From Akkermansiaceae bacterium (GTDB lineage: Bacteria; Verrucomicrobiota; Verrucomicrobiia; Verrucomicrobiales; Akkermansiaceae), in the NCBI GenBank assembly GCA_903827375.1, contig CAIKHZ010000200.1, forward strand, positions 1 to 64,000: a DNA stretch of 64,000 nucleotides, given 5' to 3'. Below the pieces are notes generated by a model. It had not been told where the DNA came from, ran no database searches, and worked only from the letters and a program-made list of their open reading frames with translations. The translations under genes were made by a program, and so were the position numbers. Positions 57,174-60,563 of this stretch are shown here, piece after piece. Position 1 is the stretch's first letter. The number at the start of each line of letters is the position of its first letter.

Positions 57174-57626
57174 ATGCGTGCACTGGTTCAGCGAGTCCTC
57201 GAAGCGTCCGTCACGGTCGATGGTCGGCAAATTGCCGCAATTGGCCACGGCTTGCTCATTTTCCTCGGCGTGGAAGAGCGCGATGATTCCGGCGACGTTG
57301 CCTGGTTAGCCCCCAAACTCGCCAAAATGCGCATCTTCCCCGATGCCGACGGCAAAATGAACCGTTCTGTCATTGAGGCCGGGGGCCGCGTGCTGGTGGT
57401 GAGCCAATTCACCCTCCACGCGTCCACCCACAAGGGCAACCGCCCGTCCTTCATCCGCGCCGCCGCCCCAGAGGTTTCCAAACCCCTCTACGACGCCTTC
57501 TGCAGCGCCATCCAAGCCGAACTCAGCCAAACCATCGCCTGCGGATCGTTCGGTGCAAACATGCAGGTGACCCTCGTCAACGACGGCCCGGTAACCCTCT
57601 TCCTCGATACCCGTCAGCGGGAATGA
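57174..57626 (+). CDS. dtd: D-aminoacyl-tRNA deacylase
   Basis: 150 residues from the ATG at 57174 (MRALVQRVLEASVTVDGRQI), the standard N-terminus of the family; the longer frame from 57075 is not conserved-looking. The catalytic motif is VVSQFTLHA with the T nucleophile, and 'NDGPVTLFLDT' is the second (N-x-G-P-V-T) signature with the cross-subunit cis G-P. It removes D-amino acids and glycine from mischarged tRNAs in the cytosol. Downstream lies the putative cassette array on the opposite strand. Confidence 0.95.
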   Translation: MRALVQRVLEASVTVDGRQIAAIGHGLLIFLGVEERDDSGDVAWLAPKLAKMRIFPDADGKMNRSVIEAGGRVLVVSQFTLHASTHKGNRPSFIRAAAPEVSKPLYDAFCSAIQAELSQTIACGSFGANMQVTLVNDGPVTLFLDTRQRE

Positions 57627-57736
57627 TCCGACGTGTGATTCTGACAGCAAAACGACACTTGCAAAAGATGCGTTTAATGAGGAACGAATTAGACCCGCTT
57701 TGACTCGGTAGCGGCATATTGTGGGATTTGGCACAA

Positions 57737-58141
57737 TTAGACAAAGTGCTCGGTCGAGTGCGGGCGGATTTCATAGCGAATGCCCCGACTCAGCGATAGC
57801 CCGGCGAAGTTCCCCGCCGCCTCCCGTTGCTCCGGTGTGAGGTGTTCGCGCCGGAAAGTGTTGGTGTCTAAGAGTTCGTATGCTTTGTTCATTCTCAGAT
57901 CTGCTTGTCTGTAAAAAATTGATCGAATCACGTAATCCAATGGCGCATAGAAATAGTTTGTCCAATGAATCTCCGATTTGAAGACAAACGAATTTTTACT
58001 CCGTCCGGTTTCACCAAGCGAAGATGCGCTCCAACAAGTAGGCCGCCCTCCAGAGTAGGCTCTAGCACTCGGTGCGATAATTGCAAAATATCCGCCCACG
58101 TAGAGCGTCATAACCAGCAGTAGCCAACGTAACAGGTTCAT
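57737..58141 (-). CDS. Putative integron cassette gene B, small membrane protein
   Basis: 134 residues from the ATG at 58141 (MNLLRWLLLVMTLYVGGYFA), with one N-terminal membrane segment or signal anchor and a soluble part ('YSGGRPTCWSASSLGE', 'EIHWTNYFYAPLDYVIRSIFYRQADLRMNKAYELLD'). I do not recognise the family. The start lies 17 bp past the attC-like element at 58159-58254, the layout expected of a cassette gene. A terminal attC-like site after its stop was not seen in the 110 bp before dtd. Base composition looks poorer in GC than dtd and ftsZ on either side. Confidence 0.65.
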   Translation of the reverse strand: MNLLRWLLLVMTLYVGGYFAIIAPSARAYSGGRPTCWSASSLGETGRSKNSFVFKSEIHWTNYFYAPLDYVIRSIFYRQADLRMNKAYELLDTNTFRREHLTPEQREAAGNFAGLSLSRGIRYEIRPHSTEHFV

Positions 58142-58158
58142 GTGGGTTGTCTTTCTTT

Positions 58159-58254
58159 GCAGAACGTGGAGCCCTACCGTCGGCGCGGCTGGAGCGTTGT
58201 TGGTTCGAGTCTGTGGTGCTGATGCCGGTCGGGAGCGGCGATTTATTGTTCGCC
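58159..58254 (-). other. Putative attC site 2
   Basis: A 96-bp element read on the minus strand: it starts with the R''-like heptamer GGCGAAC (58254-58248), 11 bp after the stop of cassette gene A, and ends with the R'-like heptamer GTTCTGC (58165-58159), 17 bp before gene B. GC-rich arms at 58166-58190 and 58220-58240 could fold imperfectly. GGCGAAC is the exact complement of the GTTCGCC that ends attC site 1, as required when both belong to the same cassette. Confidence 0.6.
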
Positions 58255-58265
58255 TTATCTTCTTG

Positions 58266-58742
58266 TTACACGGATCCAATATATACCTTTCCGTTATTGG
58301 GATTCTCCGTGTTATAGATGTGAAGGCGGCTCTTTTGGCCTTCAGGAAGAGAACTGAAATCACAGTCTTCGAAGAGAATGAACGACGGATTCCCAACCTG
58401 ATTTGTGTCGCACAAATTTGTAACCTTGCACCGTCGCAGACGAGTACCGAAGAATGACTTGTGAGGAATCTGGTTGAAGCCTCTCTGCAAATCGATCTCC
58501 CCGGGAGCATCCTCGATCAGGACTCCGAGTGACTCATCAAAGCCAAAGTATGTAGGGATGACTATTCTGAGCAAACTTGAGAATGTGTAGTCGGGACTAT
58601 TCACCGGATCAAAATATGGCTTCGCAGACGGAAATGCTCTTCGAATATGCCATCCAGCGTTCCCCAGGGTCAGCGTTGGCAGCAGCACCGAGGTTACCAA
58701 CAAGATGCCGATAATCAGGGTCTGTATCACGATGCGTTTCAT
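58266..58742 (-). CDS. Putative integron cassette gene A, small membrane or secreted protein
   Basis: 158 residues from the ATG at 58742 (MKRIVIQTLIIGILLVTSVL), with one N-terminal hydrophobic segment. The remainder includes 'YFDPVNSPDYTFSSLLRIVIPTYFGFDESLGVLIEDAPGEIDLQRGF' and 'NPSFILFEDCDFSSLPEGQKSRLHIYN'; I do not recognise a family. The gene is flanked by attC-like elements: its start is 7 bp after GTTCGCC and its stop 11 bp before GGCGAAC. The longer frame to 58808 would run through the attC site and is rejected. GC content is visibly lower than in ftsZ and dnaB, consistent with transfer. Confidence 0.65.
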   Translation of the reverse strand: MKRIVIQTLIIGILLVTSVLLPTLTLGNAGWHIRRAFPSAKPYFDPVNSPDYTFSSLLRIVIPTYFGFDESLGVLIEDAPGEIDLQRGFNQIPHKSFFGTRLRRCKVTNLCDTNQVGNPSFILFEDCDFSSLPEGQKSRLHIYNTENPNNGKVYIGSV

Positions 58743-58748
58743 ATTTCT

Positions 58749-58846
58749 GGCGAACGTCAAAAAGTGTGGCACGGCGGAGATTGAATGGAATTTGTCATGA
58801 GAAATCAAGGGCTAAACGCCGGTTGTCCAGCCATGCCTTGTTCTGC
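58749..58846 (-). other. Putative attC site 1
   Basis: A 98-bp element read on the minus strand from GCAGAAC (58846-58840, R''-like) to GTTCGCC (58755-58749, R'-like). Inner complementary pieces include CGGCG with CGCCG and GGCA with TGCC, separated by an A/T-rich centre, allowing an imperfect hairpin. It begins 9 bp after the stop of the truncated frame at 58855 and ends 7 bp before cassette gene A. Confidence 0.6.
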
Positions 58847-58854
58847 GTCTTGTA

Positions 58855-59001
58855 TTACCGGGGGCCATCCTTCGGCGTTGGGGTTAATGGTTTAACTTTC
58901 GCCGGAGCTTTGTGTGCGGGCTTGGTCGCCGGTTGACCAGCGCCTGGTTGGTATGCGTCTAGTTTGTCGGTGCTGAATACTTCATGAGATCGAGCCTGCC
59001 A
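58855..59001 (-). pseudogene. 3' remnant of a probable cassette gene
   Basis: An open frame of 48 codons without a start codon ends in TAA at 58857-58855 and reads 'EVFSTDKLDAYQPGAGQPAT' and 'KPAHKAPAKVKPLTPTPKDG'. The lysine/proline/alanine-rich tail looks coding, and its stop lies directly before attC site 1, where a cassette gene should end. The 5' part has been lost toward ftsZ. The remnant is short, so it is tentative. Confidence 0.4.
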
Positions 59002-59017
59002 TCAAGCAAGTCAACAT

Positions 59018-59052
59018 CACATCGGCGGTTACAGTCTGCTGCTAGCACATGT
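59018..59052 (-). repeat. REP-like hairpin, copy 2 (degenerate)
   Basis: The plus strand reads CACATCGGCGGTTACAGTCT then GCTGCTAGCACATGT, matching the element at 24090-24119 in the CACATCGGCGGT and ACAG parts. The pairing arm is degraded. It ends just before the ftsZ stop codon. Confidence 0.4.
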
Positions 59053-59054
59053 CA

Positions 59055-60563
59055 CTACTTTTTCTTGCGCAGGAACGGTGGCAGGTCGAGGTCTTCGCCA
59101 TCGACGACGTTGGGGGATTGCCCTTCGAAGCGCCCGCGCGGCGTGGAGTCGAAAGACAACTCGTTCTGTGGCGTCAGGGACTTGACGCCGAGTTTGAGTT
59201 TGGGGGATTCTGGCTCGGATGGCTCGTCGAGACCGACGCCTGAATGGGCAGCCGTGGCACTGGCCGATTCGCTGGAGTTTGGAGTGACGTCATAGGTGTC
59301 TTCTTCCTCGGGGAGGGAATCGATGTCGGCGGGCGGCACGGAGACGGCAGGGCTGGAGGGTTCCTCGACAGGCAGGGGGCCGGCGCTACGGAATTCGGCT
59401 TGGACGCTGGGTGCGGCGGTGGGCTGGGCGATGGGGGTTTCCTCACCAAAGAGCGATGGGGCAGGGTTATCGACGGACGAGATGCGACGCGGCTTGGGTT
59501 GCGCAGTTGGGGTGGGCAGAGGGGATTCCCCGGCGGCCTCCGTGCTGGGGTTTTCGGCGGCATGGCTCAGTTGACGCGGAGCGGCGGCGAGTGAATCTTC
59601 AGGCAATGCGCTGATGAGCGTCACCGAAAGATTGTCGCCCATCGTCGGATCCACCACTGCCCCAAATAAAACGTGGGCGCTTTCCGGAACGAATTTCTGC
59701 AACCGTTGCATCAGCAGTTCGACCTCATAAAGCGTGAGATCCTCGCCGCCGCAAAGGTGAACGAGCACCGTTTGAGCCGCCTTGAGCAGAGCCCCTTGGT
59801 CGAGCAGCGGGCTGGCCAGAGCATTGCGCAGGGCGCTTGCGGCGCGGTCCTTCCCCTTGGCGATGCCGGAGCCGAAGAGGCATCGCGAGCGGTTGGTTCG
59901 CAGCGCGCTCATCAAATCGTCGAGGCCGATATTGATGAGACCTGGGCGCACGACGAGGCGGATGACCGCCTTGATTGATTCACAGATCATGTGGTCGGCG
60001 GCCGCAAACGCCTCGTGGATGCCTTGTTTGGCCAGCACGAGTTCACCCATCCGGTTGTTATCAAAGGTGACCAAGGCGTTGGCCAGCACGGCGAGTTCGT
60101 TGAGGGTTGTTTCCGCCTGTTCACGGCGGCGGCGGCCCTCGAAGGCAAAGGGCATGGTGGCAAAGACAACGACAAAGGCACCTTCCTCACGGGCGATTCG
60201 GGTGAGGATGGGCGCGCCACCCGAGCCGGTGCCTCCGCCCAACCCGATACACAAGAAGACGATTTTCCGGCCTCTCAGTGAATCACGGATCTCGGTTTCG
60301 GCTTCAAGCATCGCCTGGTGGCCCAACTCCGGATCGCCACCGGCCCCCAATCCTTTCGTTAGGTCGCGCCCGAGTTGGATTTTCTCCCCGGCGACGCAGC
60401 CGGTGAGGGTGCGCACGTCGGTGTTGAGGGCGAGTAGTTCGGCACCTTCAGTGCCATCGAGGGCCACTCGTTCGAGCATGTTGACGCCTGCTCCGCCAAG
60501 GCCGACGATTTTTACGGCGGAACTAGGCAGGGTGGGCTGGGGTGTGCGATGATAGGGAATCAT
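59055..60563 (-). CDS. ftsZ: Cell division protein FtsZ
   Basis: 502 residues. The tubulin signature is G109-GGTGSG, with 'KIVGLGGAGVNML' and 'LLALNTDVRTL' at the nucleotide site. The T7 synergy loop reads N211-I-G-L-D-D216-L: the second acidic residue of the usual N-x-D-x-x-D is kept, but the first is Gly213. A long acidic, Pro/Ser-rich linker (about residues 330-485) precedes the C-terminal peptide 'DLDLPPFLRKKK', which binds FtsA and other partners. It polymerises at mid-cell with GTP. Last gene of the minus-strand ddl-ftsQ-ftsA-ftsZ cluster; 49 bp with a G8 tract separate it from ftsA. Confidence 0.95.
   Translation of the reverse strand: MIPYHRTPQPTLPSSAVKIVGLGGAGVNMLERVALDGTEGAELLALNTDVRTLTGCVAGEKIQLGRDLTKGLGAGGDPELGHQAMLEAETEIRDSLRGRKIVFLCIGLGGGTGSGGAPILTRIAREEGAFVVVFATMPFAFEGRRRREQAETTLNELAVLANALVTFDNNRMGELVLAKQGIHEAFAAADHMICESIKAVIRLVVRPGLINIGLDDLMSALRTNRSRCLFGSGIAKGKDRAASALRNALASPLLDQGALLKAAQTVLVHLCGGEDLTLYEVELLMQRLQKFVPESAHVLFGAVVDPTMGDNLSVTLISALPEDSLAAAPRQLSHAAENPSTEAAGESPLPTPTAQPKPRRISSVDNPAPSLFGEETPIAQPTAAPSVQAEFRSAGPLPVEEPSSPAVSVPPADIDSLPEEEDTYDVTPNSSESASATAAHSGVGLDEPSEPESPKLKLGVKSLTPQNELSFDSTPRGRFEGQSPNVVDGEDLDLPPFLRKKK

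Follow-up and report, generated by a model that had tools for sequence, protein, structure and literature searches.

Organization of the locus

The window analyzed here is a stretch of 64,000 nucleotides from an Akkermansiaceae bacterium (GenBank assembly GCA_903827375.1, contig CAIKHZ010000200.1, here C200). On its minus strand, ftsZ (stop at 59055) is followed, in this order, by the tail of an open reading frame, an element e1, gene A, a second element e2 and gene B; dtd (57174-57626) comes next, past gene B and on the opposite strand. A preliminary description of this DNA had read the block as a short array of integron-like gene cassettes with two attC sites. The heptamers and coordinates that it gave for the two minus-strand elements, which measure 98 bp (e1) and 96 bp (e2), were borne out by the sequence (Table 1). 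The packing is tight: gene A starts 6 bp past e1 and stops 11 bp before e2, gene B starts 17 bp past e2, and the truncated reading frame, an open tail of 48 codons between ftsZ and e1 with its stop at 58856, ends 9 bp before e1. The two genes are also, as had been described, lower in GC than their surroundings (0.478 for gene A and 0.451 for the retained part of gene B, versus 0.616 for dtd, 0.625 for ftsZ and 0.588 for the window). With about 0.6 kb between e1 and e2, the locus has the spacing of a CALIN (two or more attC sites within less than 4 kb of each other), and no intI with attI lies beside the array at this place, as it would in a whole integron. An Rfam scan of the region returned nothing relevant.

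Table 1. Features between dtd and ftsZ. Bit scores refer to the covariance models R1 (site family F1) and R2 (site family F2); G and C numbers denote genomes and contigs.
Feature	Position	Strand	Remarks
attC e1 (family F1), attC of cassette 0	58749-58846	-	R'' GCAGAAC (58846-58840), R' GTTCGCC (58755-58749); R1 83.5 bits; F1 relatives in own genome and beside intI in G006; covariation
attC e2 (family F2), attC of cassette A	58159-58254	-	R'' GGCGAAC (58254-58248), R' GTTCTGC (58165-58159); R2 96.7 bits; F2 relatives on C95 (three) and C19; covariation
Cassette A, complete, 590 bp	58165-58754	-	begins with TTCGCC of its R' and ends with the G of the following R'; its R' GTTCGCC is the exact complement of its R'' GGCGAAC
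Gene A, 158 aa	58266-58742	-	N-terminus hydrophobic, by eye a signal peptide or a membrane anchor; one homologue, 42% aa identity, in G085, also in a cassette
Cassette B, 3'-truncated, own attC lost	57858-58164	-	99.0% identity over 310 bp to G028 C537
Gene B as open frame, 134 aa	57737-58141	-	cassette B encodes residues 1-97 (putative exported protein), junction DNA the remaining 37
Cassette 0, 3' end of a truncated cassette	58856-58966	-	coding left part of an F3-type attC, read ...QPGAGQPATKPAHKAPAKVKPLTPTPKDGPR + stop; right half (L', R') missing; own genome and congeners have more than 20 copies that are 76-82% identical as DNA, each closing a cassette ORF
Junction DNA, cassette B to dtd	57683-57857		homology to G028 stops at 57682; part resembles an autotransporter-type repeat that occurs in many congeners
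35-bp junction fragment, ftsZ side	58984-59018		also at C30:490-524; homology to G028 resumes at 59017

The two elements belong to structured families of attC sites

An attC site ends in an RYYYAAC-like R'' and a GTTRRRY-like R' with a conserved AAC/GTT core, and has between them an imperfect L''/L' stem with extrahelical bases; its structure is more conserved than its sequence. When the block was searched as DNA against its own genome (6.1 Mb in 370 contigs), e1 turned up again on C330, C86 and, twice, C194, with a partial copy on C328; e2 recurred on C95 and C19, and the ORF tail on C95. On C95, three e2-like sites are arranged around genes of 92 and 298 residues, and we take the geometry of the first of them (R'', then 8 nt, then a stem containing a single extrahelical base) to be like that of the aadA attC of class 1 integrons. 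The two F1 attC-like sites on C194 (L033 7403-7187) stand almost back to back, the first having no recognizable R'. In all, the e1-like family (F1) and the e2-like family (F2) occur at about 20 places in the own genome and at dozens in congeners, including arrays beside complete intI genes.

A covariance-model check had been proposed for the two elements. Model R1 (from F1) hit e1 and model R2 (from F2) hit e2, and both hit many genuine arrays, these models being built from this genus, with the window sites included and the structures set by hand. In the own genome, R1 had 9 matches and R2 had 14; in G028, the closest relative, the numbers were 30 and 42 (taken to an E value of 0.1, so that the weakest are uncertain, and with some sites matching both models). 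The recognized sites amount to about 20 in the own genome and about 60 in G028. As e1 and e2 are part of the models, to which the alignments were fitted, the matches and the stem covariation given below show that the families are structured and are not an independent scoring of the two elements.

The stems are kept in 89.6% of cells in F1 (55 distinct sites) and in 96.5% in F2 (60 distinct sites). Stem covariation reached 0.441 and 0.641, compared with 0.116 and 0.155 in shuffles, and did not exceed 0.12 when the pairing was slid. An imperfect L''/L' stem is present, every pair of which covaries across the 55 and 60 sites; e1 taken alone has a weaker L stem. At the ends, the AAC/GTT core pairs in nearly all F1 and F2 sites, and the middle heptamer positions deviate from the strict consensus. 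The fold that had been anticipated for the bottom strand did not stand out on energy, the minimum-energy fold of e1 and e2 on either strand being no better than that of shuffles. The case is therefore made by comparison.

Start and end of a cassette carry matching heptamers

Within an array, each cassette opens with an R' that must pair with the R'' closing it, and the R'' and R' of any one site stem from different cassettes. Among neighboring sites of the genus, R' and R'' were exact complements in 28 of 40 pairs; 20,000 shuffles averaged 2.9 such pairs and never exceeded 11. Within one site, R'' and R' agreed in only 9 of 75 cases. The pair claimed for cassette A is exact and is one of the 28. 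A second match had been put forward, between GCAGAAC of e1 and GTTCTGC of e2. The two heptamers do match, but they join two different cassettes, which the integron model does not require; this heptamer is frequent in the genus.

These data bear on whether e1 and e2 might be dispersed repeats, REP or MITE-like, with heptamer matches that are coincidental. Such a reading would account for the repetition of the elements in the genome and for their unremarkable folding as single sequences; however, the pairing links the two ends of a cassette rather than the two ends of an element, unlike what inverted-repeat elements would display, the sites flank single genes in arrays beside intI, and gene-sized homology starts at R' (see below). 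We consider it very improbable.

By the standard integron mechanism, which would also be that of this array, the tyrosine recombinase IntI binds the folded bottom strand of attC (R''/R' and L''/L' stems, extrahelical bases) and cuts between the G and the TT of R', cassettes being excised and inserted as circles. This leaves TTRRRY at each cassette start and a matching R'' at its end. An IntI of this lineage would have moved the cassettes found here, and e1 and e2 may still be able to recombine.

Counterparts of genes A and B elsewhere in the genus

Genes A and B had been described as belonging to no known family, and searches of Pfam, NCBIfam, PHROGs, PADLOC and PDB sequences gave no match for either. 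A single homologue of gene A (G085, 42% identity) is present among the 72 other genomes of the genus; this one, read by eye, lies in a cassette with R' GTTCGGC and R'' GCCGAAC.

Further evidence came from the first 310 bp of cassette B, which are 99.0% identical to part of contig C537 of G028. This similarity starts at R', apart from a chance agreement of the two bases that precede the G, and the attC ahead of the G028 copy is unrelated to that of the window; a match starting at R' behind a different attC is what is expected from recombination at G|TT. It ends at position 57858, where the window switches to other DNA. The G028 copy has its own stop, followed by GCAGAAC, the exact complement of the window R', as predicted. 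A tblastn search with gene B gave 96% identity over residues 1-97 only. Since the G028 copy continues beyond 57858, gene B of the window is truncated, and junction DNA supplies its last 37 residues. The two-cassette array of the preliminary description thus stands for cassette A, which is complete, and has to be amended for cassette B, which lost its attC at 57858 and whose gene as drawn is chimeric. To this we add a third, truncated cassette on the ftsZ side.

Conservation of A and B beside ftsZ across the family had been named as the observation that would speak against an array. It was not found: each gene is present in 1 of the 72 other genomes, at another place and within an attC array. 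That A and B might instead be residents of the ftsZ region, unrelated to integrons, could be argued from their position directly downstream of ftsZ on the same strand; against this distribution, and with dtd and ftsZ themselves not neighbors in relatives, we regard its probability as negligible.

The block marks a breakpoint between dtd and ftsZ

On the side of dtd, the window is homologous to G028 up to 57682, and on that of ftsZ again from 59017, which delimits the block to 57683-59016. When the dtd-ftsZ spacing was compared in ten relatives, as had been suggested, the two genes were not found together: they are on different contigs in nine of them and 0.81 Mb apart in the complete genome G004. 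As homology stops and resumes around the block and dtd and ftsZ are apart in relatives, the block marks a breakpoint.

We favor a real, later rearrangement, which would have placed the block beside ftsZ, over an assembly chimera joining authentic cassettes to the wrong neighbors. The assembly does consist of 370 contigs, junction fragments flank the block on both sides, and the separation of dtd from ftsZ in the ten relatives would suit a false join as well. Assembler joins, however, need long identical repeats; there is none at either junction of the block, and the attC copies in the genome are only about 76-90% alike. A chimera is in our view unlikely.

Several other observations were made on this region. 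In G028, JetC/JetD-like genes (Wadjet defence) directly follow dtd at the position of the breakpoint (C749, L120 9848-14432), and ftsZ is on another contig. The junction DNA at about 57825-57861 resembles an autotransporter-associated repeat (TLSGANTYTGAT-like; one match, read by eye), and ten congener genomes contain short stretches that match it. An IS3-like transposase fragment adjoins the repeat match at C30:490-524, which failed to explain the junction.

Integrases in the genome and in the genus

The absence of an adjacent integrase, part of the initial CALIN assignment, was confirmed: contig C200 contains no match to TIGR02249, and the label holds. In the own genome, this model detected a C-terminal intI fragment of 62 residues (96.7 bits; ...GVRSPLDGL) at the edge of contig C83 (L029 2-406), which runs off the contig start and is the sole integrase trace in the assembly; the other matches were weak and concerned other tyrosine recombinases. 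No known attC site lies near this fragment. The array of the window may thus once have been part of a complete integron, as judged from the presence of this fragment elsewhere in the draft genome.

TIGR02249 matches above the curated cut-off were obtained in 28 of 59 genomes (the own one and 58 relatives). In the congener G006, complete intI genes on two contigs (357 and 362 bits) are followed by same-strand cassettes with F1 sites, and on one of its contigs (C75) an F2 site accompanies F1 downstream of intI. In the usual integron layout, intI and the array are divergent. This is reversed in 11 of the 14 congener loci with recognizable sites (L070-L089), where attC is downstream of intI on the same strand.

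In many integrases of the genus, the usual protein of 315 residues is preceded by roughly 110-190 further residues at the N-terminus (e.g., L083 2372-3931 and L084 1119-2522). Pfam gave no match in this extension.

An attC family that is read as protein

The ORF tail on the ftsZ side (58966-58856) recurs at more than 20 places in congeners, as the C-terminal part of otherwise different proteins. Complete copies of the tail have TAGCCGGTGGCAGGCC...GTT immediately after it. Taken as DNA, the tail forms an attC of a third family, F3, consisting of R'' (such as GTCGAAC), 8 nt, GCTGACCAACCGGC, a loop, GCCGGTGGCAG and R'. The cassette ORF runs in frame through R'', L'' and the loop, and a TAG stop stands directly before L', with the result that cassette proteins unrelated to one another have about 32 C-terminal residues in common (EQAGADQPATKPADK.PVKDQPSTPTSKD.PR). 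In-frame sites of this kind were found in the window (58856-58966), in L162 (3835-3715, 2760-2634 and 1203-1081) and in L207-L217. In the window, the right half of the site is missing and the tail runs straight into e1.

Where a gene could be assigned to an F3-like site, it ended at the TAG before L' (+96 to +99) in 17 of 36 cases; most genes ahead of F1 and F2 sites stop upstream of R'' or within it. The outcome follows the R'' of F3: an in-frame TAA there is the gene stop, and GAA allows read-through. The 15 closest tail copies have no indel over 96 nt. Their third codon positions were slightly more variable, which was not significant (p about 0.14), and the wider F3 set had no third-position excess. 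A scan of GTDB genomes placed the F3 tail in 12 loci, all of them in Akkermansiaceae or other Verrucomicrobia MAGs. A literature search among open-licence papers found no paper on C-terminal tails encoded by attC.

On account of the GACCAACCGGGCGCT copies on C95, 58856-58966 had at first been read as a repeat foreign to integrons; this was rejected when the segment proved to be the coding left part of an F3 attC. On C95 itself (L031 8490-8400), tandem 15-bp repeats GACCAACCGGGCGCT lie inside a degraded F3 attC.

Discussion

The block between dtd and ftsZ is almost certainly a CALIN remnant, to judge from comparative sequence data, in which cassette A is complete, cassette B is truncated at its 3' side and the 3' end of a third cassette remains, all stranded at a dtd-ftsZ breakpoint. 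The reading as a CALIN-type array that had been proposed is supported by the site families, the covariation in their stems, the R'/R'' pairing, the linkage of the same families to intI in congeners and the homology to another array that starts at the crossover point. Counting against it, just two sites and one complete cassette are left, energy folding of the single elements has no signal, the covariance models derive from these very families, and the assembly shows no full integrase. The strength of the confirmation lies in the pairing of the cassette ends and in the relative that holds cassette B elsewhere. The array is authentic but degraded, one scattered fragment of an integron system that is common in the genus.

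The locus resembles a CALIN in its two attC sites within 4 kb, the small genes between them and the contig devoid of an integrase, and differs in having one complete and two truncated cassettes at a rearrangement junction. The sedentary chromosomal integrons of the Vibrio type likewise comprise long arrays of uncharacterized cassettes with few recurrent attC families per genome, whereas the arrays of this genus are dispersed over many contigs and have several attC families per genome, the window being only a fragment. In Treponema integrons, intI is transcribed towards attI, with the sites downstream (PMC3607928). The congener loci with sites downstream of intI on its strand are similar in this respect (PMC3607928), but belong to another phylum; many of their integrases are N-terminally extended, and the window has no intI. 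Integrons have already been reported in Verrucomicrobiota, and the array of the window is thus of a known kind, in a phylum already credited with integrons (PMC8618304).

The main and most novel by-product of this work is the translated attC family F3. The notion that the F3 attC of Verrucomicrobia doubles as coding sequence, with a shared tail that is putatively functional, is speculative, and we give it a rather low probability. Should the tail serve to export, stabilize or sort the proteins that are captured, such an attC would in itself amount to a portable tag for proteins.

An Akkermansiaceae-like genus known mainly from metagenome-assembled genomes thus has many integron arrays of uncharacterized genes. 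It is a source of material on how rearrangement gives rise to CALINs, on integrases that are extended at the N-terminus and on translated attC sites.
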